64,000 nucleotides of DNA from the NCBI RefSeq assembly GCF_002939885.1, contig NZ_MDED01000003.1, positions 124,001 through 188,000 on the forward strand. Direction: 5' to 3'. Positions 45,940-57,106 of the stretch are shown here, one piece after another (the stretch's first letter is position 1; each line of letters begins with the position of its first letter). Below the pieces are notes generated by a model. It had not been told where the DNA came from, ran no database searches, and saw only the letters and a program-made list of their open reading frames with translations. This DNA comes from Xanthomonas cucurbitae. GTDB taxonomy: Bacteria; Pseudomonadota; Gammaproteobacteria; Xanthomonadales; Xanthomonadaceae. The position numbers and the translations under genes were made by a program.

Positions 45940-45985
45940 TGGTGCCGGAAATAGGAATCGAACCTACGACCTACGCATTACGAAT
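45940..45985 (-). repeat. attL: displaced 3' half of tRNA-Thr
   Basis: 46 bp matching 57031-57076 with three mismatches. The last 19 bp (CGACCTACGCATTACGAAT as written on the plus strand, 45967-45985) are identical. Two of the mismatches form a compensated base pair in the T-stem, so this is a genuine, folded tRNA half rather than random similarity. There is no 5' half next to it. Confidence 0.85.
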
Positions 45986-46114
45986 CGCTGCGTGCGCAGT
46001 TTGCCATGATTTGGTATCAGATGGCCTAAGTGCGCTTACAGCAAGGGAAAACCGCGACCTAATGAGGCTTCAGGGGCACTTACGGCGCGTCTGAACACGG
46101 CACCTTGTGGTGCG

Positions 46115-46129
46115 AAACCGTGTCCGTGC
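46115..46129 (+). repeat. candidate integrase arm-type site, left
   Basis: AAACCGTGTCCGTGC, matched in the same orientation with one change at 56961-56975 near the other end of the element. It lies about 130 bp inside the core repeat, just before the integrase gene. Confidence 0.45.
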
Positions 46130-46156
46130 CGTGGCCCCGCCACTCACGGAGCCAGC

Positions 46157-47341
46157 ATGAAGTCGAAGATCACCCAGTCCCTCGTCGAAAGGGCGCCCCG
46201 GCCCGAGCCGGGCAAGTCGGTCCTATACGCTGACACCGAGATGAGGGGGTTCTACCTCATCGTCACCGCCACCAAGCGCAGCTTCTACGTGCAGTCCCTC
46301 GTCAACGGCCGCCAGGTCAGGACGAAGCTGGGCGACCACCCGGCGATGGACGCCAAGCAGGCCCGCGACGCCGCCCGGCAGACGCTGGTCGGCATGCGCG
46401 GCGGGGTCAACCCGAACGAGGAGCGCCGACGGGCGCGTGCGCGCGGGATCACCCTGCGCGAGGCGCTCGACCTCCACCTGGCGGCCAAGCCGCTGTCCCC
46501 GAGGACCAAGGACGACTACCGCTACAACTGCGAGCAGTACCTGTCCGACTGGCTCGACCGTCCGTTGGCCGAGCTCGGCGCGGACCGCTCGGGCGTGCGC
46601 GACAGGCACCGCCGGATCACCGATCGGCACGGCGCACCCTCGGCGGACAACGCCTTCCGCATCTTCCGGGCCGTGTACAACCGGGGTCTGCGGGAGCACC
46701 CGGACCTGCCGCCGAACCCCTGCGGGAACGTTGACTACCACGGGCTGCGGCGCCGCAAGGTGGACGCCCCGGCGGACAGGCTCAGGGCGTGGGGCAAGGC
46801 GGTGCTCGGCCTCCACCCGGTGCGGCGCGACCTGCACCTCTTCATGGTGCTCACGGGCATGCGGCGCACGTCGGCCTGCGAGGCCCGCGCCTCGGACCTG
46901 GACCTCGCCTCCGGGCGCCTGCACGTGCCCAAGCCCAAGGGCGGATCGACCAGAGCGTTCGACCTGCCGCTGTCTGGGCCGCTCGCCGACCTGCTCGGCC
47001 ACCGGGTCGAGGAGAACCCTCGGCTGCACAGAAAGACGCCGTGGCTATTCCCCGCAGAGTCGAAGTCGGGTCACGTCGCCGAGGTCGCGCAGCACGAGTT
47101 GGACGGACTGACGGGCCACGCCCTGCGGCATACGTTCGCCACGCTGGCCGTGCAGGCGGGCGTCCCGCTGCTTGAGCTGAAGTACCTGCTCAACCACGCG
47201 GCGAGCAACGTCACGATGGGCTACATCCATGTCGGCCCCGAGCACCTGCGCAAGCACCAGGAGACGGCGTCGCGATACATCCTCGAACAGCTCGGCCTCG
47301 AGCACGAACCGGGACAGTGGCCGCCGAGGCTCAAGGAATAG
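46157..47341 (+). CDS. int: P4-type tyrosine recombinase (integrase)
   Basis: 394 residues. The N-terminal arm-binding domain (about 1-95) has the P4-integrase pattern SVLYADTEMRGFYLIVT followed by RSFYVQ. The core-binding domain follows, then the catalytic domain with Arg in LTGMRRTSACEARASDL, HALRHTFAT (His-x-x-Arg box), LLNHAASNVTMGYIHV (second His and nucleophile Tyr). All visible catalytic residues are intact. The gene starts 170 bp inside attL and reads into the element, so integration is expected at the tRNA core repeat. Confidence 0.93.
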   Translation: MKSKITQSLVERAPRPEPGKSVLYADTEMRGFYLIVTATKRSFYVQSLVNGRQVRTKLGDHPAMDAKQARDAARQTLVGMRGGVNPNEERRRARARGITLREALDLHLAAKPLSPRTKDDYRYNCEQYLSDWLDRPLAELGADRSGVRDRHRRITDRHGAPSADNAFRIFRAVYNRGLREHPDLPPNPCGNVDYHGLRRRKVDAPADRLRAWGKAVLGLHPVRRDLHLFMVLTGMRRTSACEARASDLDLASGRLHVPKPKGGSTRAFDLPLSGPLADLLGHRVEENPRLHRKTPWLFPAESKSGHVAEVAQHELDGLTGHALRHTFATLAVQAGVPLLELKYLLNHAASNVTMGYIHVGPEHLRKHQETASRYILEQLGLEHEPGQWPPRLKE

Positions 47342-47657
47342 CCGCACGGCCTCACCAGGCGGCCCGTGTCGTGTCCGGGGCCGAGCGGCCTGATACCGAG
47401 CAGCCAGGACCGAACCGGACGACACGGACACACCGGGGAGTCCGGGCGCAATGCTGGTATTAACGTGAGCGCGCCTCTGGCAGTATTTGATTCGTCGGCG
47501 CCACCAGCCGCCGACGCCAGGCTTTCGGTGGCCTACAAGACCGAGACCCGCCCCGCCGACTGAGGGGAGCAAACGGGTCCATCTCTGCGACGCAAAGCAG
47601 GCAGTCCCCGCAAGGCACGTCGCCGTGCGGGGATCGCACCTGCACGGAGTCCAGAAG
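47342..47657. other. intergenic between integrase and AlpA-like gene
   Basis: 316 bp without a supportable gene. It probably holds the promoter for the replication genes; GGAG precedes the next start. Confidence 0.4.
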
Positions 47658-47954
47658 ATGGCCTACGAACCCAAGAAGTTCTCCCCCGCGGAGCTCGCCG
47701 AGCTCCACGCACTCCCCGACGACTCGCTGCTGACCGCCCAGGAGGCGGCGGCCTTCCTGCGCCTGAAGTACGGGACGTTGGCTTGGTATCGCTGCCAGGG
47801 CGGCGGCCCGACGTTCACCCGAGTCGGGCCGAAGCTGATCCGCTACAAGCTGGGCGACCTGCGCGACTACGCGAAGGGCCAGCCGATGGGCGAAGGCGTC
47901 CGGCGCGCCGCAACGGCGATGCTCGCCGCACGCACCGCCAACGCGGAGGGCTGA
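47658..47954 (+). CDS. AlpA/excisionase-like helix-turn-helix protein
   Basis: 98 residues from ATG 47658. A MerR-like winged helix spans about 22-75: LLTAQEAAAFLRLKYGTLAWYRC, then GGPTFTRVGPKLIRYKLGDLRDYA, the pattern of excisionases and AlpA regulators. In satellites such proteins control excision or switch on replication. It ends 3 nt before the primase start, so it is the first gene of a replication operon. Confidence 0.8.
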   Translation: MAYEPKKFSPAELAELHALPDDSLLTAQEAAAFLRLKYGTLAWYRCQGGGPTFTRVGPKLIRYKLGDLRDYAKGQPMGEGVRRAATAMLAARTANAEG

Positions 47955-47957
47955 CCG

Positions 47958-50036
47958 ATGGCCGCACATGAAAACGCCCACGGCGTGCTAGACCGTGGGC
48001 GTAAGGGTGCAACCGACCGGGAGACGGAGCCTGCCAGAGCTCACGGGGTCAATGATGCCGCGGGGTCTGCCGCCTCGACGCCATCATTTGAGGCCGCGGC
48101 CCAGTACCGCGACGTCCGCCTCGACCTGATTCCCCTGCGCCGCCGCGACAAGATGCCCGCCGATAAGCGGTGGCAGGAACGCGCCTACGACCAGGGCGAG
48201 GTGCTGGAGCGTGCGAGGCGCGACGGCCTTAACCTGGGCGTGCGCCTTCCCGCCGACGTGGTCGTGGTGGACGTGGACCCGCGCAACTTCCCCGCGGGGC
48301 GCGACAGCCTGGCCGAGCTGGCCGCGACCTTCGGCCTGCCGCTCACCTCGGCACCGCACGTCCTGACCGGCAACCTCGAACACCCCGGCCACCACTTCTA
48401 CTTCCGCAAGCCCGGGGGCGCCCTGCTGCTGGACAGCGTGGACGGTTTCGCGGGCGTCGAGTTCAAGTCGCTCGGCCGCCAGGTTGTCGCCCCTGGCTCG
48501 GTGCACCCGACCGGCGGCGTGTACCGCTGGGCGCCAGATTCGCCCCCGCTGCACCGAATGCCGGATCTGCCCGCAAGGCTGGTCGAGGCGGCGCGCAGGC
48601 CGGAGAGGAAGCGAACCACGGGCGCAGGCGAGATCACCGCCGAGCAGCTGGCCGCTTCGCTTGAACACCTGGACCCGACGGACTTCCGTGAGCACGACGC
48701 ATGGTGCGAGCTGATGATGGCGTGCCACCACGCCACCGACGGCGCGGGGCGGCAGGAGTTCATCGACTGGAGCACGTCCGACCCGAAGTTCGCGGACCAC
48801 GAATGGATCGTCGGCCGCCGCTGGGACTCGCTGCACGCCGGCCGCGACGACGCTGTGACCATCGCGACGCTGCGCAGGCGCCTCAACGAGGCCGGGTCCG
48901 ACATCGCGCCGCCCGACGCGGCCGACGACTTCGACGTGTGGGACGAGGTCGAACCGATCGAGCCGCGCGCCCGCAGGCGCTTCCTCAACGTGAACGACCT
49001 GAAGGCACTGCCGCCGCCGCGGTGGCTCGTGCCCGGCCTGCTGGTCGAGGACAGCGTCGCGGCCATCTACGGCGCGCCCGAATCGGGCAAGTCGTTCCTT
49101 GCACTCGACATCGCGATGGCCGTCGCGGGCGGCGTGGACTGGCACGGCCGCCGGGTGACCGACGGCGGCGTCCTGTACGTCGCGGCTGAGGGCGCCTCTG
49201 GCCTCGGCAAGCGCGTCCGCGCGTGGGAGATCGACCGCGGCATCGACGTGGGCACGTTCCCGCTCTGGCTGGACCACGGCGAGATCAACCTGGCCGCCGA
49301 GCGCGACGGCGGCGTCCGCGCCTTCGTCAGCGACGTGGTCGAGGAGCTCGGGCCGCTGCGCCTGGTTGTCATCGACACGCTGAACCAGACGGCCGCGGGT
49401 GCCGACGAGAACTCGGCGAAGGACATGGGTCGCTACATCGCGAGCATGAAGCGCATCCGCGACGAGACGGGCGCGACCGTCGTGGTCGTGCATCACTCCG
49501 GTAAGGATCCCGGCAAGGGCATGCGCGGCAGCTCGTCTCTGCTCGGTGCAATGGACACCACGGTCGAGGTGATCCGCGACAAGGAAATGCGCGCCATCAC
49601 CGTGACCGTGCACAAGCAGAAGGACGCGGAGCGCGAGCCGCCGATGCGGTTCAATCTGGAGCGCGTGGACCTTCCAGGGGAACCCGACTGGAACGGCAGG
49701 CCGCCGTCGTCGCTCGTGCTCCGTCCGACTTTGATGGTCGACGCGACCTCCGACGTCGGGGGCGAGGCGACGGCGGACGACGGGCTGACTGCCCTGGCGT
49801 GCGAGCTGGGCGCAAAGGACGGGACGGTGAAGGCATCCGAGCTGCTCGACGCCGCCACCAAGCGCCTGGGCATGAGCAAGAGCTCAGCGCAGCGCGCGGT
49901 GGCAGACAAGATCCCCGAGGGTCGCATCGACGCCGTGCGCGCAAGCTGGGGCGGTCGCCACTTCTGGCTGTGGTGCGAGCGCGTCGGCAAGCACTCCACG
50001 GCGCCGAAGGTGGTGCGGGTCGAGGCCACGTCATGA
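47958..50036 (+). CDS. primase-polymerase/helicase replication protein
   Basis: 692 residues. The N-terminal prim-pol domain (about 45-215) has the catalytic acidic motif VVVVDVDPRNF and GHHFYFRKP. A PriCT-like linker (about 230-300, EFIDWSTSDPKFADHEW) leads to a RepA-type ATPase with Walker A YGAPESGKSFLALDIAM (about 375), Walker B LRLVVIDTLNQ and a VVVVHHSGKDPGKGMRGSS sensor segment. A C-terminal winged-helix-like part (about 620-692) may bind the origin. It would open and prime the adjacent iteron array, allowing autonomous replication after excision. Confidence 0.85.
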   Translation: MAAHENAHGVLDRGRKGATDRETEPARAHGVNDAAGSAASTPSFEAAAQYRDVRLDLIPLRRRDKMPADKRWQERAYDQGEVLERARRDGLNLGVRLPADVVVVDVDPRNFPAGRDSLAELAATFGLPLTSAPHVLTGNLEHPGHHFYFRKPGGALLLDSVDGFAGVEFKSLGRQVVAPGSVHPTGGVYRWAPDSPPLHRMPDLPARLVEAARRPERKRTTGAGEITAEQLAASLEHLDPTDFREHDAWCELMMACHHATDGAGRQEFIDWSTSDPKFADHEWIVGRRWDSLHAGRDDAVTIATLRRRLNEAGSDIAPPDAADDFDVWDEVEPIEPRARRRFLNVNDLKALPPPRWLVPGLLVEDSVAAIYGAPESGKSFLALDIAMAVAGGVDWHGRRVTDGGVLYVAAEGASGLGKRVRAWEIDRGIDVGTFPLWLDHGEINLAAERDGGVRAFVSDVVEELGPLRLVVIDTLNQTAAGADENSAKDMGRYIASMKRIRDETGATVVVVHHSGKDPGKGMRGSSSLLGAMDTTVEVIRDKEMRAITVTVHKQKDAEREPPMRFNLERVDLPGEPDWNGRPPSSLVLRPTLMVDATSDVGGEATADDGLTALACELGAKDGTVKASELLDAATKRLGMSKSSAQRAVADKIPEGRIDAVRASWGGRHFWLWCERVGKHSTAPKVVRVEATS

Positions 50037-50044
50037 ACGCCCGC

Positions 50045-50242
50045 GAAGTCTCCTGAAGTCTGATTTTGGAGTCTCGAGACTTCGGAGACTTCGCGACGTC
50101 CTGAAGTCTGAAGTCTGTTCCGAATCAGCAGCTTATGCGCCCACTCGATTCGCAGACTTCGGACGAGAATTCGGCCACGGCAGACGAGACTTCGCAGCTT
50201 TCACTTTCTTAAGAAAGTGAAAGCGAAGTCTGCCCGGAGTCT
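50045..50242. repeat. iteron array, probable replication origin of the element
   Basis: The heptamer GAAGTCT or its complement AGACTTC occurs exactly nine times in about 190 bp (starts at 50045, 50055, 50077, 50086, 50103, 50110, 50154, 50187, 50225), with GGAGTCT variants at 50068 and 50236. Orientations are mixed. It starts right after the replication-protein gene, the usual position of satellite and plasmid origins. Confidence 0.8.
50198..50223. promoter_or_regulatory. 26-bp perfect palindrome inside the iteron array
   Basis: Arms CTTTCACTTTCTT and AAGAAAGTGAAAG form a perfect dyad centred on TTAA. It is framed by outward iterons AGACTTCG (50187-50194) and CGAAGTCT (50224-50231), which extend the symmetry with a 3-nt offset. 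It is AT-richer than its surroundings and is a good candidate for the melting site or replication-protein dimer site. Confidence 0.8.
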
Positions 50243-50482
50243 GATTCTTGAATAACTCCACAAACAGTGAGCGCGTGGACGGATGCGTCCAACCTTGCGT
50301 GCCGTGTCCCTCGCGCGCGAGGCGAACTTTCCAGGTCGTCCCGCCGATGCGCGCCGCCTAATCAGACATGAGAGGGCCGACGCCATCCAAGCCATTGATC
50401 CGACTGCTTGAACGATGGCGTGCCTGCGCGCGTAAGCACGACACCATCACGCCGTAAGCCACTTTTCACCCCGGAGGCGACC
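50243..50482. other. spacer between origin and terminase-like gene
   Basis: 240 bp with no credible gene. A weak DnaA-box-like sequence (AACTCCACA, 50254-50262) is present but matches the consensus at only about six of nine positions. Confidence 0.35.
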
Positions 50483-51001
50483 GTGCTTTCCATCCCGAAC
50501 ACCTTCACGCCCGAGCGGCGCGAGCTGTTCTTCCAGGTGCTGGAGGACACGTGCTCGCCCAAGCAGGCCGCCGCCGCGGCGGGCATCAGCAGGCAGACGG
50601 CCTTCTACCACAAGGCCAACGACATCGAGTTCCGCACCCGGTGGGAGAAGGCGGTCGAGGTCGCCCTGGACGCGCTGCTCGACGAGGCCTACAGGCGCGC
50701 GGCGATCGGCTACGACGAGCCAGTCATCCACCAGGGACGACTCGCCACCACCGCAGACCCGGCGACCGGCGAGGAGCGGCCGCTGACGGTGCGCAAGCAC
50801 AGCGACAGGCTCCTGGAGGTCCTCCTGAAGTTCCGCTACGGCGAGCAGATGGCCGACAGGCTGCGCGTCAGGGTCGAGGACACGGGCCTCTCGGCCGACG
50901 CCCTGCTGGCGATGCCCGCCGACGAGCGCGCCCAGCTCGTGGCGCTGCTCTCCAAGTACAACGCGGCGCGGCCGCACGACGAGGAGCACGACGATGAGTG
51001 A
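50483..51001 (+). CDS. terminase small subunit-like DNA-binding protein
   Basis: 172 residues from GTG 50483, chosen because GGAGG lies 5 nt before it; the open frame begins at 50408. An N-terminal helix-turn-helix (about 8-45; SPKQAAAAAGISRQTAFYHK) is followed by a helical segment and the stretch LTVRKHSDRLLEVLLKFRYGEQMADR, a pattern I know from small terminases (KYSDxLLxxLLKxxxPxKYxDR). The small subunit selects DNA for packaging. In satellites it redirects helper-phage packaging to the satellite genome. No large terminase is present, which fits a satellite; an ordinary regulator is the alternative. Confidence 0.55.
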   Translation: MLSIPNTFTPERRELFFQVLEDTCSPKQAAAAAGISRQTAFYHKANDIEFRTRWEKAVEVALDALLDEAYRRAAIGYDEPVIHQGRLATTADPATGEERPLTVRKHSDRLLEVLLKFRYGEQMADRLRVRVEDTGLSADALLAMPADERAQLVALLSKYNAARPHDEEHDDE

Positions 51002-51239
51002 CAGGCTGAGCGTCGCCGAGGCCCTGGCCAAGGCGGAGCAGATCGAGGTCATGCTGGGCGCGATCGAGGGCACGGCGCCCGAGGCGGTCGAAGCGATGGG
51101 CGGGCGCGACGCCCTGGCACGCCGCAGCGAGATGACCTGCCTCGGCCCCGTGCCGCGCCTGGACGCGGACGAGTGGGAGCGCATGTCGCTGGAGTACGAG
51201 GCGCGGCGCGAGCATGGCAGCGTCAACCGGGGGCACTAA
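50994..51239 (+). CDS. small unknown protein of the element
   Basis: 81 residues, helical and acidic (SVAEALAKAEQIEVMLGAIEG). It overlaps the terminase-like gene by 8 nt and the next gene by 26 nt, so it is part of a coupled set. No domain recognised. Confidence 0.6.
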   Translation: MSDRLSVAEALAKAEQIEVMLGAIEGTAPEAVEAMGGRDALARRSEMTCLGPVPRLDADEWERMSLEYEARREHGSVNRGH

Positions 51240-51657
51240 CGGGCACGCGGTCGCCGTGGAGGTGGACGGGGTGCGATACCCCTCCGCGAGGTCGGCGGCC
51301 CAGGCGCTCGGCATCGGGTACAGCACGGTCACCGCCCGCGCGCACGACCCCAGGCACCCGAGCTACCGCTGGCTCGGCGCCACGCCCGGCCGGCGGGAGC
51401 TGACGCCCGAGGACAGGCGCATCGCAAGGCCCCTCACCGAGCCCGAGCGGTGGCCGAACGACGGCGGCGCGCGACGCGCCCCCGTGATGGACCCCAACTA
51501 CGACCCGCCCAGGGTCGTGCGCCGGGTCGGCTGGCTCCGCTGCATGTGCTGCGGGCGGTCCCACTTCTCCGAGGACGTGGCCCGCGCCCGCATGTGCCAG
51601 GAGTGCGGCGGCGTCGGCGGCATGCCGACTGGGCCGCGTCCCGACTGGGACGCCTGA
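51214..51657 (+). CDS. small protein with NUMOD-like helix-turn-helix and zinc ribbon
   Basis: 147 residues. The N-terminal part (about 14-55: VDGVRYPSARSAAQALGIG followed by YSTVTARAHD) looks like the NUMOD/AP2-type DNA-binding helix found next to phage endonuclease and packaging genes. The C-terminal part carries two Cys pairs (CMCC near 110 and CQEC near 130), likely a zinc ribbon. Function unknown; a regulator or packaging accessory would fit the location. Confidence 0.55.
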   Translation: MAASTGGTNGHAVAVEVDGVRYPSARSAAQALGIGYSTVTARAHDPRHPSYRWLGATPGRRELTPEDRRIARPLTEPERWPNDGGARRAPVMDPNYDPPRVVRRVGWLRCMCCGRSHFSEDVARARMCQECGGVGGMPTGPRPDWDA

Positions 51658-51882
51658 CATTCCATCGGCGGGCGGCGCGACGACAAGCCCATGATCCGCA
51701 AGCCGCAGTGACGGCGGCAGATCCGAGGGAAACACGCCTGGAGAACGATGGCGTCCGCGGCCAGCGCACCCCGACACATTGAACGCATCCGGTCAGCGCA
51801 TTGGCGCGCAGACCACCCCACGGCTGGGGATGCGCTCGTGACAGGCGACCGGAGGACCACAACCCACCGGAGCACACGAGCA

Positions 51883-52608
51883 ATGAAGATCGAACTCAGC
51901 GACACCCCCCTCCTCAACACCCAGCAGATCGGCGATCTCGCCTCGACCCTGGACCTGCTGCACAAGCGCACCCTCGCCGCGATCGAGCGGCTGAACAAGG
52001 ACATCGCGGCCCGCAAGCAGCAGATCGCCGCGCGCTGGAAGAATGCCCCCGGCATCGGCATGGCCGACGTGGCGCGCTTCGCCGAGCACGAGACCCTCGC
52101 CAGCGTCCGCGAGATCAAAGACAACTCCAAGGCCGAGCTGGACAAGATCATGAAGGAGGCCGGCGCGCCGCACGCGCAGCTGGTCGGCCAGCGCCAGTTC
52201 TACGACTCCCCGGCCAAGGTCCTGGCCCGCGCGGCCCTGGGCGACCCCAAGCGCACCGAGTACCTCCAGCAGCTCCAGCACGCCGGCCCAGCCGAGCTCG
52301 GCCACATGGCCCAGGTCGCCGTCGGCACCCGGAACGTCGCCCTGGCCTCGGCCGTGCTGTCCCTGATCGACCGCCTGCCCACCAAGGACCGCCCGGTCGG
52401 CCCGGTCGAGCTGGCGACCGCGATGAGGCAGGACGACTTCCTGAAGGTGCAGGAGTACATCAAGTTGGGCGACGCGCGCCTCCAGGGCATCCTGGTCGCC
52501 ATCCGCGCCTGGAACGCCGGCCGCTCGAACCCGCTCGGCTCGGTGCAGCTCGCCATGCGCGAGCGGGACATCGACCACGACCTGATCGGGGGCGACGGCG
52601 ATGACTGA
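51883..52608 (+). CDS. unknown protein of the element with N-terminal coiled coil
   Basis: 241 residues from ATG 51883 (KIELSDTPLLN), with GGAG about 10 nt upstream; the open frame begins at 51748. The first 60 residues are predicted helical and coiled-coil-like (LASTLDLLHKRTLAAIERLNK), the remainder is helical and charged. No known domain. It sits after the terminase-like gene, where satellites often carry capsid-size or packaging modifiers, but that is only context. Confidence 0.6.
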   Translation: MKIELSDTPLLNTQQIGDLASTLDLLHKRTLAAIERLNKDIAARKQQIAARWKNAPGIGMADVARFAEHETLASVREIKDNSKAELDKIMKEAGAPHAQLVGQRQFYDSPAKVLARAALGDPKRTEYLQQLQHAGPAELGHMAQVAVGTRNVALASAVLSLIDRLPTKDRPVGPVELATAMRQDDFLKVQEYIKLGDARLQGILVAIRAWNAGRSNPLGSVQLAMRERDIDHDLIGGDGDD

Positions 52609-52882
52609 CCGACGCGCCCACTACCCGCCGTGCCACCCGGCGATGCTGGCACTCGCCGCCCTGGTCGCGGCGATCCAGCACAGGTGCGACCCGTTCCCCG
52701 AGCTTGAGGCCGCCGCGGCCCGCAACGGCGTGGCCGTCGGCTCCGAGGAGTTCGACGAGGCAGCGGCGCTGGCCGGGCAGCCCTACTGCCGCGCGCTGGA
52801 CCTGTACGTGGACCGCGAGACCAAGCGCAGGGCTGACGCCCTCGGGCCGGGGATGGCGCACCTGGCCTTCCTCCCGGCCTGA
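52601..52882 (+). CDS. small unknown protein of the element
   Basis: 93 residues, overlapping the previous gene by 8 nt. Mostly helical (MLALAALVAAIQHRCDPF, near the N-terminus), soluble, no known domain. It is followed by a strong terminator, so it ends the operon. Confidence 0.6.
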   Translation: MTDRRAHYPPCHPAMLALAALVAAIQHRCDPFPELEAAAARNGVAVGSEEFDEAAALAGQPYCRALDLYVDRETKRRADALGPGMAHLAFLPA

Positions 52883-52948
52883 CCCGAGCAAACCCGGCCG
52901 GGTTGGTTAGGTGCGCAGAGGGCAACGGGTGGCCCGGCCGTGTTTCGG

Positions 52949-52981
52949 AGGGGATGTCTTCACGGCATCCCCTTCTTTTTC
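52949..52981 (+). terminator. terminator after the packaging-region genes
   Basis: AGGGGATG (52949-52956) and CATCCCCT (52966-52973) form an 8-bp stem followed by TCTTTTT. Confidence 0.85.
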
Positions 52982-53104
52982 ATGCACTTGGGATCCCCCA
53001 CCCGCCGACGGGCAATTAGAACCCTGAATTTTGGACCTACCCCGGCTCCCGTATCTCACCCGGCGCGACACGATGCCCCTACAACCCAACCGTAGGAGAG
53101 CACC

Positions 53105-53614
53105 ATGAAGCTGGAAGATATGCCGACCAAGGAACTGCTGGCCCTGCACAACCGCATCGCCGACAAGCCCGCCGGCCCGAAGACGTTCGCGACTCGGGCC
53201 AAGATCGTCGCGCGGATCGAGCAGATCGCGGCAGCCAAGGACATCGACCTGGCCGCGTCCGGGCAGCCGAAGAAGCCCAAGGCGGCCGCTAAGCGCGCAG
53301 AGCCGAAGGCCGAGGTCGTCGAGGCGCCCGAGGCCACCGAGAGGAAGCCGCGCGGCCTCGGTGTCGGAGCGCTCGCCCGCGCGATCCTGATGGACCCTGC
53401 CGGCTACCCGCACGCCCTCATCGCGGCGATGGTCAATGCACAGGTCGAGGGCGCGGCCGCGACGGACAAGAGCGTCCGCTGGTATGCGAACGACATGCGC
53501 AAGAAGGGCGTCGAGGTGCCGCCCCGCCAGAAGCACCACCCTGCCGAGATGGACGAGGAGCAGTCGGCGGCTGCGCTGCGCACCGTGACCGTTGTCAGCG
53601 AGGGGGGCGAGTGA
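53105..53614 (+). CDS. unknown protein of the element, SAP-like N-terminus
   Basis: 169 residues preceded by TAGGAGAG. The N-terminal 40 residues (MPTKELLALHNRIADKP) resemble a SAP-like helical DNA-binding motif, then an Ala/Lys/Pro-rich linker (about 55-80) and a compact C-terminal domain (about 85-145; LARAILMDPAGYPHALIAAMV and SVRWYANDMRKKGVEV) that looks like a winged helix. Probably a DNA-binding regulator. It ends 2 bp from the convergent restriction enzyme gene. Confidence 0.6.
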   Translation: MKLEDMPTKELLALHNRIADKPAGPKTFATRAKIVARIEQIAAAKDIDLAASGQPKKPKAAAKRAEPKAEVVEAPEATERKPRGLGVGALARAILMDPAGYPHALIAAMVNAQVEGAAATDKSVRWYANDMRKKGVEVPPRQKHHPAEMDEEQSAAALRTVTVVSEGGE

Positions 53615-53616
53615 AG

Positions 53617-54729
53617 TCAGTCCTCGCCGCTCACCAACCCCGCAAAGCGGGCAGCCCCGAGGATGTGCGCCTGCGTCGCGTCCTTGACGCGCGCCTTCAT
53701 CATCGCCGAATCGACAAAGGCCCACACCTCGTCGGCGGACACTTCGGGCGGGGCGAGTCCCGCGCACATCGCGAAGAACTGCTCGACGTCCACGAAGGAC
53801 ACCCGGACTCTCTGGTCATCCGCAATCTTGATGACGAGGTCTTGGCTGCGAAAAGCCCCTTGCGACCTTGGTCCACACACGAAGTAAAACGCACCAAGCC
53901 CAGCATGCGCCACTTTGAGTGCCGCATGGCCGACGTCGTTGGGACTGAACTCCTTATCCTTGACCTCTGCCGCATAGGTCACCACCTCATCGGAAAGGAC
54001 ATCGACGTCGAGCACCTCGTTAGACGAGGAGCCGGCCTGATTCACGGGGTGGACCTTGATCTCGAACTCCCGGCCAGTTCCGCGACCCAGCAGGAAGAAC
54101 GCGAGGCCGGTCACGATCGCGCACGACTCGCCCTCACAGGACTGCGCGACCGCGGCGCTCACGAACTTTGTCAGGACCTTGTGGAGCGTGGCGTCGCCGT
54201 CGAGTTCGGCGGCCTCTCCGACCAGCGACTCGCGCTGCATCGTGTAATAGATCGCGTCGATCAGCGCGTGCTCGGCGTCGGCCGCGTCTCGCAGGTTGCC
54301 GAGAATGTCGATGCACTTCCCGAGGATGCTGCGGTCGTACCCGCGCCGCACGGCGTTCTCGGCGGTGAGAGCGGTGTATCGCGCGGGCTTGTTCAGGTAC
54401 GGCTCGTTGGAACGGCCGAGCTTGCCCGCAAGCTGGTTCGGGTCGCGGTCAAAATCCACCACGACCTTGTGACAAAGGGAGCGGGAGTCGAACGCGCCAT
54501 TCAGGTCGGCGCCTGCTTGCAGCGCAAGCCCGTTGGCGCGGCCATTGGTCGCCTTCGCGAGCAGGTTGGTGAGCAGGATGTAGCGATAGGTGAGGTGGCG
54601 CCCGAGCATGACGTCCGAGATGGCATCGCTCTTCACGTGTTGCGGCTGAAAACCGTCAGCCTTCGCGGCCGAAAGTGCGCTCTTCAGCTTCTCGCGGGCA
54701 GCCGCGTGGTCAATAATGGCCTGCGTCAA
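53617..54729 (-). CDS. type II restriction endonuclease, SacI family
   Basis: 370 residues. The segments LLTNLLAKATNGRANGLALQ, AFDSRSLCHKVVVDF and GRSNEPYLNKPARYT follow the SacI-family pattern. The nuclease core is seen in VLDVDVLSDEVVTYAAEVKDKEF: Asp, then Glu-x-Lys (PD-(D/E)xK type). SacI cuts GAGCTC; a shared specificity here is likely but not proved. It is divergent from the methyltransferase across a 107-bp gap containing an inverted repeat, so both are probably controlled together. Its GC content is lower than the rest of the element, which suggests separate acquisition. Confidence 0.78.
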   Translation of the reverse strand: MTQAIIDHAAAREKLKSALSAAKADGFQPQHVKSDAISDVMLGRHLTYRYILLTNLLAKATNGRANGLALQAGADLNGAFDSRSLCHKVVVDFDRDPNQLAGKLGRSNEPYLNKPARYTALTAENAVRRGYDRSILGKCIDILGNLRDAADAEHALIDAIYYTMQRESLVGEAAELDGDATLHKVLTKFVSAAVAQSCEGESCAIVTGLAFFLLGRGTGREFEIKVHPVNQAGSSSNEVLDVDVLSDEVVTYAAEVKDKEFSPNDVGHAALKVAHAGLGAFYFVCGPRSQGAFRSQDLVIKIADDQRVRVSFVDVEQFFAMCAGLAPPEVSADEVWAFVDSAMMKARVKDATQAHILGAARFAGLVSGED

Positions 54730-54734
54730 GTTGA

Positions 54735-54757
54735 GATTCCCCCTAGTCTAGGGAATC
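54735..54757. promoter_or_regulatory. inverted repeat between restriction and methyltransferase genes
   Basis: GATTCCC (54735-54741) and GGGAATC (54751-54757) are complementary across a 9-bp centre that continues the symmetry (CCTAG/CTA). It begins 6 bp from the restriction gene start and is a candidate operator for timing expression of the two enzymes. Confidence 0.55.
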
Positions 54758-54836
54758 GGACGTTGCCCGATGACGCGAGGCAAGTCAAGATGAATAGCGG
54801 ATGCCGATCCGTCCCAATGGTTTTGAGAGGTTATCG

Positions 54837-55934
54837 ATGAAGGCTGTATCCCTTTTCACAGGCGCCGGTGGCATGGACGTCGGGTTCCGCAACGCGGGGT
54901 TCGAGGTCGCCTGGGCCAATGACTTCGACAAGGATGCCTGCGAGACCTACCGCCTCAACCACGGTGACCACATCCACCATGGCAGCATCGATGACCTGAT
55001 GCCCGAGCTAAAGGCTCTGGGGCGCGACGGGGACGTCGCCTGTCTGTTCGGCGGCCCTCCGTGTCAGGGCTTCTCCGTGGCCGGCAAGATGGATGCCCAC
55101 GATCCGCGCAGCAAGCTTGTCTGGTCTTACATGGAGGCGGTCAAGCTGATTCGACCCGCCGCCTTTGTCATGGAGAACGTCAAGTCACTAGCCACGCTTG
55201 AGAAGTTCAGCGCGGTACGAGAGGGTCTCTTCAAGGAGGCAAACAAGCTGGGCTACAACGTGGAGCTGGTGGTCCTCAACTCCAAGGACTTCGGCATCCC
55301 ACAGGGCCGCGAGCGCATGTTTCTAGTCGGCTTCCGTGACAGGCCCAATCGCTTCCGCGACTTGATCGACGATCACAGACGCTCGGCTCCGAAGCTCCGC
55401 GATGTTCTGCTAGGAGTAGGCAAGATCGGCTCACCCACTAACAACCGGATATGCCGCGCGAAGGTCACCGCCGCCGCGAGTCCCGTGATGCGCCGCTCAC
55501 CGTATGCAGGGATGCTGTTCAACGGGCAGGGGCGGCCGCTTAACCTCGACGGGCACGCGTCCACCCTGCCCGCGAGCATGGGCGGCAACAGAACCCCCAT
55601 CATCGACGACGCAGCGCTCTACGGCAACGAGACGCCGTGGGTCGAGGATTACCACGCCCACCTGATGGATGGCGGCGACCCGATCGACTGGCAGACGGTG
55701 CCCGAGCGACTGCGCCGCCTCACCGTGGATGAGGCTATCGCGATCCAGACCTTCCCGCGGGACTACAGGTTCGCCGGCCCGCAGAGTTCGGTGTTCAAGC
55801 AGATCGGGAACGCGGTGCCATGCCTGCTCGCCGAAGCAGTGGCCTCAGTGGTGTTCGAGCTGCTATCCGAAAGCCCCAGCGCGACGAAGAAGCGGCGACG
55901 AACGTCCGACGAATTGGAGCTGGAAATCGCTTGA
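54837..55934 (+). CDS. DNA (cytosine-5)-methyltransferase of the restriction system
   Basis: 365 residues from ATG 54837, preceded by GAGAGG. Motif I is LFTGAGGMDVGF, motif IV GGPPCQGFSVAG with catalytic Cys76, motif VI FVMENVKSL, motif VIII GIPQGRERMF, and motif X QIGNAVPCLLAEA. It methylates the recognition site so that the paired nuclease does not cut. The target recognition region lies between motifs VIII and IX (about 195-275). It is followed by a clean terminator. The C-terminal tail is basic (ATKKRRRTSDELE). Confidence 0.93.
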   Translation: MKAVSLFTGAGGMDVGFRNAGFEVAWANDFDKDACETYRLNHGDHIHHGSIDDLMPELKALGRDGDVACLFGGPPCQGFSVAGKMDAHDPRSKLVWSYMEAVKLIRPAAFVMENVKSLATLEKFSAVREGLFKEANKLGYNVELVVLNSKDFGIPQGRERMFLVGFRDRPNRFRDLIDDHRRSAPKLRDVLLGVGKIGSPTNNRICRAKVTAAASPVMRRSPYAGMLFNGQGRPLNLDGHASTLPASMGGNRTPIIDDAALYGNETPWVEDYHAHLMDGGDPIDWQTVPERLRRLTVDEAIAIQTFPRDYRFAGPQSSVFKQIGNAVPCLLAEAVASVVFELLSESPSATKKRRRTSDELELEIA

Positions 55935-55939
55935 AGAGA

Positions 55940-55962
55940 GGCCGCCGACGAGGCGGCCTTTT
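55940..55962 (+). terminator. terminator of the methyltransferase gene
   Basis: GGCCGCC (55940-55946) and GGCGGCC (55952-55958) with a 5-nt loop and a TTTT tail, 6 bp after the stop. Confidence 0.85.
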
Positions 55963-56108
55963 CATTTCTGCGGGACTAACCGCGCGCGATGATGCGCCGT
56001 CCATAAACGAATTGACGCCTGCAAACAGGGTCTCCACTTGCTCTGCTCCAGCTTAGTCGCAGGGCTGTGAAAGCGAGAGTGGCAGCCAACCCGGCTGCCC
56101 TTCAACGA

Positions 56109-56570
56109 CTACAAGCAAGCTCTAGCCCAAGCATCAGCGATGTTGTCCCGCCCCTCAAGGATCACGCTCTTGCCGCCCGAAACGAAGCGCCGAAAGCCGG
56201 TGTACCCGCCGAGCTCGTTCTTGCCGTTGACCCGGCCGCAGACGACAACACCGAACTCCTCGGTGTAGTTGGCGCGCACCTCCTTGAACTGTGCGGCGTC
56301 CGGGTCCTTCAGCTCGGCCCTCACAGCGCGCTCGGCCGCCACGATCATCTCAGCGCCGAACCACTTCTCGTGCTGCGCTTTCTTCTCCGCTACCGTCAGC
56401 GGGCGCTCCGGCTCTGGCTTCGACACTTCTGCCTGCTGGGCTTGCTTCTGCGGCGCTTCGGCCACTACGGCAGGCGTGGAGGCATCTGCAGGCTCGCTGC
56501 GCGGCACCAGCCCTGACCCGATCCAGGCCAGGACAACAAGGACGACTAGTAGAACCCCTACGCGCTTCAT
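56109..56570 (-). CDS. membrane-anchored periplasmic protein of unknown function
   Basis: 153 residues. A single N-terminal helix (MKRVGVLLVVLVVLAWIGSG) is followed by an Ala/Pro/Glu-rich linker (about 25-60) and a folded C-terminal part (about 70-153) with LKDPDAAQFKEV, VVVCGRVNGKNELGGYTGF and a final Cys. The DPD-AQF and C-G-VN-KN--GGY-GF signature recurs in small exported proteins of many proteobacteria and their phages. In an integrated element a superinfection-exclusion role is conceivable. Divergent from the XRE gene. Confidence 0.65.
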   Translation of the reverse strand: MKRVGVLLVVLVVLAWIGSGLVPRSEPADASTPAVVAEAPQKQAQQAEVSKPEPERPLTVAEKKAQHEKWFGAEMIVAAERAVRAELKDPDAAQFKEVRANYTEEFGVVVCGRVNGKNELGGYTGFRRFVSGGKSVILEGRDNIADAWARACL

Positions 56571-56592
56571 GTGCTTCCCTTCGGCTTTGATG

Positions 56593-56613
56593 AATAGTCC
56601 ATTTTGGACTATT
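56593..56613. promoter_or_regulatory. perfect inverted repeat between the divergent membrane protein and XRE genes
   Basis: AATAGTCC (56593-56600) and GGACTATT (56606-56613) around ATTTT. The AGTCC/GGACT arms resemble the C-box half-sites of restriction-modification controller proteins. It lies 22 bp from one start and 44 bp from the other, so a single repressor could control both. Confidence 0.65.
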
Positions 56614-56657
56614 CCAATCCGAACTTTAGCGTGTGATGACCATCAAGTCATCGCACG

Positions 56658-56948
56658 ATGCCTCAATCGACGCACAACTCCGACTACCAGCTTCTGCTAG
56701 CCGTTCTCAAAGCGGCTCGTAAGCGTGCGGGAGTGTCGCAGGTCGATTTGGCTAGCCGCTTGGGCAACACACAGACTTTCGTCTCGAAGTGCGAGCGCGG
56801 TGAGCGTCGCATTGACGCCGTGGAGCTGGTCGAGTTCGCCGAAGCACTGGGAATTGCACCGCAAAACCTACTTGCCGAGTATCTAGAACAGCGCGGCGGC
56901 TCGTCTTCAGCGAAGGCGCGCAAAGGCAAGAAGTCGCACGGGAACTGA
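56658..56948 (+). CDS. XRE-family regulator (possible controller or immunity repressor)
   Basis: 96 residues. The helix-turn-helix (about 10-65) is clear: LKAARKRAGVSQVDLASRLG followed by NTQTFVSKCERGERRIDAVEL. The tail is short and basic (SAKARKGKKSHGN). Size fits C-proteins of restriction-modification systems, and the inverted repeat upstream resembles a C-box, but the gene is separated from the enzyme genes by the membrane protein. Alternatives are a satellite immunity repressor or a copy-control regulator. Confidence 0.8.
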   Translation: MPQSTHNSDYQLLLAVLKAARKRAGVSQVDLASRLGNTQTFVSKCERGERRIDAVELVEFAEALGIAPQNLLAEYLEQRGGSSSAKARKGKKSHGN

Positions 56949-56960
56949 GCATTCGTGCTC

Positions 56961-56975
56961 AAACCGTGTTCGTGC
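56961..56975 (+). repeat. candidate integrase arm-type site, right
   Basis: AAACCGTGTTCGTGC, same orientation as 46115-46129 with one change; about 83 bp inside the attR core. Confidence 0.45.
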
Positions 56976-56979
56976 GCAT

Positions 56980-57016
56980 CCCTGAAAAGCATTTAGGCCG
57001 CCCGAAGGCAGCCTAA
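56980..57016 (-). terminator. element-borne terminator for tRNA-Thr
   Basis: On the minus strand a 10-bp stem (56993-57002 with 57007-57016, one wobble pair) is capped by a TTCG tetraloop and followed by ATGCTTTTC. It lies 14 bp after the tRNA 3' end, inside the element, so it replaces the native terminator left behind at 45.9 kb. Confidence 0.75.
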
Positions 57017-57030
57017 GTGCTTGATGTACA

Positions 57031-57076
57031 TGGTGCCGGAAACAGGAGTCGAACCTGCGACCTACGCATTACGAAT
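57031..57076 (-). repeat. attR: 3' half of the intact tRNA-Thr
   Basis: Partner of 45940-45985; the identical 19-bp core is 57058-57076 and covers the anticodon loop, its 3' stem and the variable loop. Crossover in this core regenerates a functional tRNA. Confidence 0.85.
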
Positions 57077-57106
57077 GCGCCGCTCTACCAACTGAGCTAT
57101 TCCGGC
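57031..57106 (-). tRNA. tRNA-Thr (anticodon CGU)
   Basis: A complete 76-nt cloverleaf read on the minus strand: acceptor GCCGGAA/TTCCGGC, D-arm GCTC/GAGC, anticodon stem GCGCA/TGCGT with loop TTCGTAA (anticodon CGT), T-arm GCAGG/CCTGT with loop TTCGACT, and encoded ACCA. The 3' 46 nt overlap attR, so part of the gene was supplied by the element. Confidence 0.96.

Follow-up and report, generated by a model that had tools for sequence, protein, structure and literature searches.

The window analysed here is a 64,000-nucleotide stretch of Xanthomonas cucurbitae DNA (contig NZ_MDED01000003.1). It contains an element of 11.2 kb inserted within a tRNA-Thr(CGT) gene and delimited, both tRNA parts included, at 45940-57106 by repeat search and ARAGORN. 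This element is probably an integrated phage satellite resembling the phage-inducible chromosomal islands (PICIs), with slots for exchangeable cargo and with a helper phage of the Mesyanzhinovviridae/Bradleyvirinae kind. Thirteen of its open reading frames (ORFs) were scanned with Pfam, 10 of these also with PHROGs, and NCBIfam was used on some. The features are the following.

45940-45985 (core 45967-45985): attachment (att) site on the integrase side, displaced 3' half of the host tRNA-Thr (direct repeat)
46157-47341, plus strand: tyrosine integrase, int (PF00589, 7.6e-16; Arm-DNA-bind_3, 3e-11)
47487-47954, plus strand: AlpA-like HTH_17 regulator or excisionase, start uncertain (HTH_17, 4e-6; PHROG 66 excisionase/regulator, 0.00098)
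47958-50036, plus strand: primase-helicase, predicted replication initiator (Prim-Pol, PriCT_2 and AAA_25, best 1.1e-44)
50037-50407: iteron region, probable replication origin (9 copies of AGACTTC/GAAGTCT)
50408-51001, plus strand: terminase small subunit, TerS (PHROG 4044, 1.4e-27; phage TerS matches; tree)
50994-51239, plus strand: core ORF o81, no assigned function, kept beside terS in relatives
51214-51657, plus strand: core ORF o147, conserved (HTH_50, 0.00088, under the Pfam cut-off)
51883-52608, plus strand: core protein o241 (ORF o286, which opens at 51748), predicted all-helical, 229 relatives
52601-52882, plus strand: core ORF o93, conserved in relatives
53105-53614, plus strand: core ORF o169, relative of Bradleyvirinae AXL1 gp57 (PHROG 16873, 3.4e-9)
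53617-54729, minus strand: cargo, type II restriction endonuclease of the SacI family (RE_SacI PF09566, 4.7e-69; PADLOC REase_II, 7.8e-79)
54801-55934, plus strand: cargo, C5-cytosine DNA methyltransferase (PF00145, 4.1e-65)
56109-56570, minus strand: o153, small protein without assigned function (PHROG 2320, unknown function, 7.6e-19)
56658-56948, plus strand: XRE-type HTH regulator, candidate repressor (HTH_3, 3.1e-11)
57031-57106, minus strand (core 57058-57076): tRNA-Thr(CGT) (ARAGORN, Rfam RF00005, direct repeat)

The insertion is bounded by a 46-nt direct repeat (45940-45985 and 57031-57076, 93% identical). A 19-nt core that includes the anticodon loop is identical in the two copies. The right copy is the 3' half of the tRNA gene. 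The repeats suggest that this tRNA now has a host-derived 5' half and an element-derived 3' half. An earlier reading of the sequence alone (hereafter the sequence-only reading) had described intact att repeats, which the repeat search bears out. It placed the element at 45967-57076; this holds as the span from core to core, but falls short of the whole element with both tRNA parts. It also proposed looking for empty tRNA-Thr sites in related Xanthomonas. A search of 35 genomes of the same genus gave 30 loci, one of them the window itself, and 5 genomes gave no locus. In 28 of the 29 other loci, coxII (cytochrome oxidase subunit II), tRNA-Thr and lytB are contiguous, and the site is empty. In the remaining one (L047) the contig stops at the tRNA. 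The tRNA-Thr(CGT) site is also empty (L060) in G031, a genome that bears a TerS relative elsewhere.

The integrase, AlpA-like regulator, primase-helicase, iteron origin and terminase-small-like protein named by the sequence-only reading are all matched by family profiles or, for the origin, by the repeat count. The SacI-type restriction gene is likewise recovered, with the C5 methylase beside it. Capsid, tail and other structural genes, lysis genes and a large terminase gene, the first two and the last of which that reading had also noted as absent, find no match in the 13 ORFs with Pfam or the 10 with PHROGs. The Pfam match of TerS, Sf6_terminase, is under the cut-off. int and alpA are co-directional and the candidate repressor lies at the opposite end; this regulator also occurs in relatives without SacI-like cargo. 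o153, common to several relatives, adjoins the tRNA end.

Related elements across genera

Searches with TerS yielded 32 loci (numbered with L), 11 on viral contigs and 21 on genome contigs. According to their record titles, the genome contigs come from Fulvimonas, Xanthomonas, Lysobacter, Luteimonas, Pseudoxanthomonas, Stenotrophomonas and Vulcaniibacterium, as well as Azospira, Azonexus, Zoogloea, Ottowia, a strain of Alcaligenaceae and a number of metagenome bins, of which one bears the label Planctomycetota. Pseudomonas aeruginosa is also named among the TerS or o241 protein matches. The shared core is int-alpA-primase-terS-o81-o147-o241-o93-o169. o241 and the primase are each present in 31 of the 32 loci, alpA in 29 and int in 26; all six loci without int (L003, L017, L021, L024, L032, L034) end at a contig edge. 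The integrase is 68-98% identical in relatives with a full-length match. These data suggest that the satellite family is widespread and reaches into Xanthomonadales, Betaproteobacteria and Pseudomonas. Homologues confined to complete prophages or conjugative elements would have spoken against the sequence-only reading; what the searches gave instead are small insertions that share the core of the window element. A limited literature search met no earlier description of the family. Putative phage satellites are reported in seven S. maltophilia defence islands (PMC11680222).

The whole unit appears mobile. In Fulvimonas soli DSM 14263 (L012), the same element, SacI pair included, is 91.4% identical over 10.1 kb from the att site. 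Azospira (L019) and Azonexus (L020) carry elements with 99.85% identity across 11,392 bp, a stretch that begins at the split tRNA and extends as far as the opposite att (L019:3991-15380 and L020:3995-15380); they lie in two different tRNA-Thr genes. Their left flanks, about 4 kb, are unmatched, and only 117 bp are available on the right side of L020. A Thauera bin (L021) is 99.3% identical to this element over 7.4 kb, up to the contig end. Near-identical whole elements in two genera thus indicate recent movement of the entire unit. At L010 and at L032:10001-10339, only about 115 residues of the TerS relative align; the L032 element lies at tRNA-Thr(TGT).

o241 is among the most conserved core proteins, and its structure model has a predicted local distance difference test (pLDDT) score of 87. 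It has no match in 50,697 phage records and one weak match in 72,556 plasmid records. The longest contigs among the 120 relatives listed were counted by eye in bins of 7.5-10, 10-12.5 and 12.5-15 kb. The counts are 5, 19 and 3 for o241, 12, 11 and 2 for TerS, and 11, 7 and 5 for the SacI-family enzyme, taken as a contrast. The o241 peak at the size of the element (10-12.5 kb) suits free or flank-broken copies. It was not used as proof of a free element, as the TerS counts drop after 12.5 kb without a peak.

tRNA ends were inspected in 25 loci. In the window and in L001, L016, L017, L018, L023 and L032, the 5' half of a single tRNA-Thr continues into a 3' half, as in ordinary restoration (5 are TGT). 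In 15 loci, the insertion breaks the host tRNA at the anticodon loop, and a complete spare tRNA-Thr lies about 150 bp further inside the element (L002 at 81-301, L004, L012, L014, L019-L022, L024-L026, L028, L031, L033, L035). The split was called from two 5' halves in 14 of them, and in L024 from one broken half and ARAGORN. L027 and L068 have one intact tRNA each, of unclear relation, and L030 has none. Integration is described as restoring an intact tRNA in PMC8371274 and PMC4383910; the present family may offer another route, which splits the tRNA and supplies a spare. The spare gene would free the element from matching the anticodon stem. The nearly identical elements of L019 and L020 lie in tRNA genes with different stems. 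We considered that the L020 element had invaded a tRNA-Thr(TGT) gene and swapped the anticodon, compared with L019. This idea was abandoned, since one such genome contains an intact CGT tRNA that has the stem in question.

The core has two orientations. By eye, 8 loci (window, L004, L006, L008, L012, L027, L029, L030) have a core that points away from int. In 18 of the 27 int-bearing loci, the window counted, alpA-o169 point towards int (for example L001, L002, L005, L013, L014, L016), and L015 is otherwise rearranged. A tree of 25 integrases (7 and 18 of the two orientations) requires at least 4 orientation changes (bootstrap 3-5). Of 500 shuffles, 12-13 are as low, and the strongly supported branches force only 1 change. 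L015:303-4684 departs from the other loci in that terS and the block o81-o169 point towards each other, through either a real inversion or an assembly error. An ORF of 165-178 residues lies beside int at L002:9889-10386 and is similarly placed in L001, L014, L016, L018, L022 and L030; the one copy scanned has no Pfam or PHROG match.

The 7-mer AGACTTC/GAAGTCT occurs 9 times in the 375 nt between primase and terS. In 100 base shuffles, the commonest 7-mer reached 2.2 copies on average and 5 at most. L012 and L028 have the same iteron, and seven loci (L013, L016, L017, L018, L019, L021, L029) share GACAATC instead. The last 52 residues of the primase are 90-94% identical to those of the window in L012 and L028, versus 29-33% in the GACAATC loci. 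The N-terminus is 77-90% identical in the GACAATC loci and only 60% in L028. L028 has the least similar N-terminus of the ten primases, yet its last 52 residues are 90% identical and its iteron is that of the window. Since the C-terminus covaries with iteron type in these ten primases, iteron recognition probably lies in the C-terminal part. Origin specificity of a primase-helicase could thus be mapped to the last 50-150 residues. The other 19 primases compared have unlike AAA parts (13-18% identical). Strong repeats of a different sequence are present at two of their loci, L026 and L035; at the remaining 17, every 7-mer stays at 6 copies or fewer.

The regions beside the core vary. Among 147 candidate ORFs, 30 were scanned with Pfam and 10 with PADLOC. 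Pfam identified restriction-modification genes, namely C5 methyltransferases in L001 and L002, NaeI endonucleases in L001 and L005 and N6/N4-type methylases in L022 and L025. It also identified other defence genes (reverse transcriptase in L016, SLATT in L019 and L027, TIR/SEFIR in L030, PRTase-CE in L033), as well as DUF3644 (L005), DUF5343 (L029), an HTH protein (L031), a ParA-type ATPase (L013) and an Hjc-like protein (L028). Fourteen of the 30 have no family at E 0.001. PADLOC matched 4 of 10 (type II endonuclease in L025, reverse transcriptase in L016, PDC-S42 in L030 and, weakly, PRTase in L033); the other 6 are unmatched. Judged by these families, the regions are swap slots, used largely for defence genes and not for SacI alone.

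Predicted helper and rival readings

Three proteins of the element have phage relatives. At E 0.001, 79 phage records match TerS, and none of them reaches 60% identity. The best among the matches listed are phages of Xanthomonas, Stenotrophomonas, Pseudomonas, Variovorax and Janthinobacterium, which are Bradleyvirinae or near relatives. DLP4, Elanor, DoCa5, AXL1 and Donnerlittchen belong to Mesyanzhinovviridae, Bradleyvirinae according to their records; those of phiH1 and PaMx74 give Pamexvirus only, and that of VBv52 no such rank. Pamexvirus is grouped with Mesyanzhinovviridae/Bradleyvirinae phages in PMC11946847. Residues 2-311 of the primase are 48-56% identical in the 30 phage records listed, with the best matches in the same phages as for TerS. 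o169 matches 6 records of 4 phages, in addition to AXL1 gp57 of the same PHROG. DLP4 has its primase and terS side by side in the order seen here, with 628 nt between them. In the TerS tree, a 100/100 branch splits 30 satellite rows from 8 phage rows. The satellite proteins being on one side, TerS was not captured repeatedly among those sampled. Xanthomonas, Stenotrophomonas and Pseudomonas are hosts of both the satellites and these phages. Taken together, these relationships make Mesyanzhinovviridae/Bradleyvirinae phages the predicted helpers. PMC11946847 regards this phage family as mostly virulent and also refers to published lysogeny of LK3 and DLP4. Satellites that depend on virulent phages have been described (PMC10803314).

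By its anatomy and its relatives the element is PICI-like, and its putative lifestyle would be as follows. After induction by a helper, the integrase and the AlpA-like protein would excise it from the tRNA-Thr gene. The C-terminus of the primase-helicase would bind the iterons beside its own gene and replicate the circle. The satellite TerS would then single out the DNA of the element for packaging by the large terminase into capsids of the helper, presumably one of the Mesyanzhinovviridae/Bradleyvirinae phages. The predicted helper group is obtainable; its phages, regarded as mainly virulent, have modified DNA. The way in which satellites locate helpers of this sort and package into them becomes a testable question.

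Several observations weigh against this model. No helper, excised circle or particle was seen, and the 8 viral contigs L001-L008 show no exact terminal repeat that would betray a circular form. TerS reaches at most about 40% identity with phage proteins, and coverage of the primase stays below 80% in all 1638 phage records. A search of the host genome, run without positive control, did not recover the TerL of DLP4, and no resident helper is known. A similar TerS is encoded only by the host and by 1 of 60 other genomes searched (G031, 62% over a shortened stretch). Finally, o241 has no phage relative, and a structure search gave no clear fold match.

The element could instead be a defence island whose spread relies on its integrase and on occasional transduction, generalised or of another kind, with TerS and primase as relics. 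We consider this unlikely. It would agree with the largely defensive cargo, with the lack of packaging evidence and with the shortened TerS of one relative (L010/L032), and an island with int, alpA and restriction cargo, I55, is known to be carried by a jumbo phage (PMC12595487). The TerS of the window and 8 relatives nevertheless has 86 invariant columns, it keeps the same neighbours across genera, and iterons and primase C-terminus have stayed matched, all of which argue against relics. A decayed Bradleyvirinae-like prophage would account for the primase, gap and terS order of DLP4, yet it is very improbable in view of the same compact core in 32 loci, the single clade of satellite TerS, the lack of counterparts of int, alpA and o241 at E 1e-2 in the stretches of DLP4, Mallos and AAT-1 compared, and the reported absence of integrases from correctly classified Mesyanzhinovviridae (PMC11946847). 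Equally improbable is an integrative element mobilised by conjugation, which the spread over several families and a TraF match of o169 far under the cut-off (NCBIfam, 16.3 bits against 294) might evoke, since no relaxase, mobilisation or conjugation family is significant in the 13 ORFs with Pfam or in those given PHROGs or NCBIfam, and o241 finds so little among plasmids.

Restriction cargo and DNA modification in the predicted helpers

The sequence-only reading proposed that the satellite, through its restriction cargo, would exclude other phages. The restriction-modification pair is indeed present; its action may not extend to phages in general and may spare the helper. Tentatively, and with more doubt than belief, we propose that the satellite arms its host with an enzyme whose sites are masked in the DNA of its own helper. 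Xp12 is listed with AXL1 and DoCa6 in Bosavirus (PMC11946847), and in Xp12 5-methylcytosine replaces all cytosines (PMC11946847, PMC7653180). When very partial digestion is counted as resistance, Xp12 DNA withstood 196 of 218 enzymes (PMC7653180); the passages of this source hold nothing on SacI, and mention NaeI only for T4gt. A modified cytosine is suspected in AXL1, whose DNA is reported to be cut by 5 of 31 enzymes, SacI not being among the five. The first 50 kb of AXL1 contain 49 SacI sites for 49.4 expected. With sites at the expected density and DNA reported as not cut by SacI, AXL1 DNA thus resists this enzyme, the namesake of the cargo family. The cargo methyltransferase is itself a C5-cytosine enzyme.

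If the window endonuclease cuts GAGCTC, as its family would suggest, and if AXL1-like phages help the window satellite, a helper of this kind may multiply and transport the satellite, and rival phages with unmodified DNA would be cut. The defence cargo that a satellite is able to retain would in that case be set by the base modification of its helper. The idea that satellite-borne defence harms rivals and leaves the helper unharmed can be tested. On the other side, KpnI is reported to cut AXL1 DNA, so masking is not general, and N6/N4 methylases and non-restriction cargo (reverse transcriptase, SLATT, TIR) are left unexplained. SacI sites are depleted neither in the element (8 observed, 8.2 expected) nor in AXL1, which by itself says nothing on protection; the rest of the window has 5 for 11.6 expected. 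C5 methyltransferases occur in the window, L001 and L002 (Pfam) and in L005, L008, L012 and L014 (similarity), and N6/N4-type enzymes in L022 and L025. Enrichment of C5-type cargo was discarded as a test of helper sparing because members share cargo in pairs.

Comparison with known systems

A prophage is recognised by capsid, tail, TerL and lysis genes, which the ORFs scanned do not show. P4-like satellites resemble the element as small satellites with a primase-helicase, and the sequence-only reading had placed them beside PICIs as models. They carry the accessory genes psu, sid and delta. These three have no Pfam or PHROG match in the element ORFs, P4 proteins themselves not having been used as queries; no feature peculiar to P4 turned up. 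Tycheposons, elements of marine cyanobacteria, also integrate into tRNA genes and carry a complete tRNA gene; their core genes differ from those of the window family. They are named in PMC11389934.

I55-type islands (PMC12595487) share int, alpA and a type II restriction-modification cargo that benefits the host. They differ in their tmRNA site, in a shared region that alone measures 18 kb and in their jumbo phage helper, and the word terminase does not occur in the main text of that paper. The PICMIs of Vibrionaceae (PMC10803314) have int, alpA and a primase, and their helpers are virulent phages. Their model requires a DUF3987/DUF5906 primase, whereas the window has Prim-Pol and AAA_25; their site is beside fis (optional in one model version) and not in tRNA-Thr. 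The main text of that paper also lacks the word terminase. SaPIs with TerS redirect packaging by a TerS of their own (PMC6092414). The window family differs from them by its hosts, its replication genes and the absence of an Stl-type divergent regulator beside int.

The closest resemblance is to Gram-negative PICIs such as EcCICFT073 and PmCI172, which have int, alpA, a primase-initiator, an origin and sometimes terS, without structural or lysis genes and with cargo at one end (PMC6092414). The sequence-only reading had recognised this order, and int, alpA, primase-helicase, origin, terS and cargo do follow Fillol-Salom et al. 2018 (PMC6092414). At 11.2 kb, the element is somewhat smaller than the typical size of about 15 kb. 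Genes exclusive to such elements are represented by o241, on the basis of the related loci and of the phage and plasmid records searched. The divergent regulator pair beside int, stated for Gram-positive cocci, is absent. PMC6092414 further characterises PICIs by att sites that prophages never use and by induction, interference and packaging that depend on a phage. The helpers it names are prophages such as lambda and phi80, whereas the window family shares genes with Bradleyvirinae. It also differs from Gram-negative PICIs by its site in tRNA-Thr and by the two core orientations relative to int. Judged by its genes, the window family is a new variant among PICI-like satellites, with an unusual predicted helper group.

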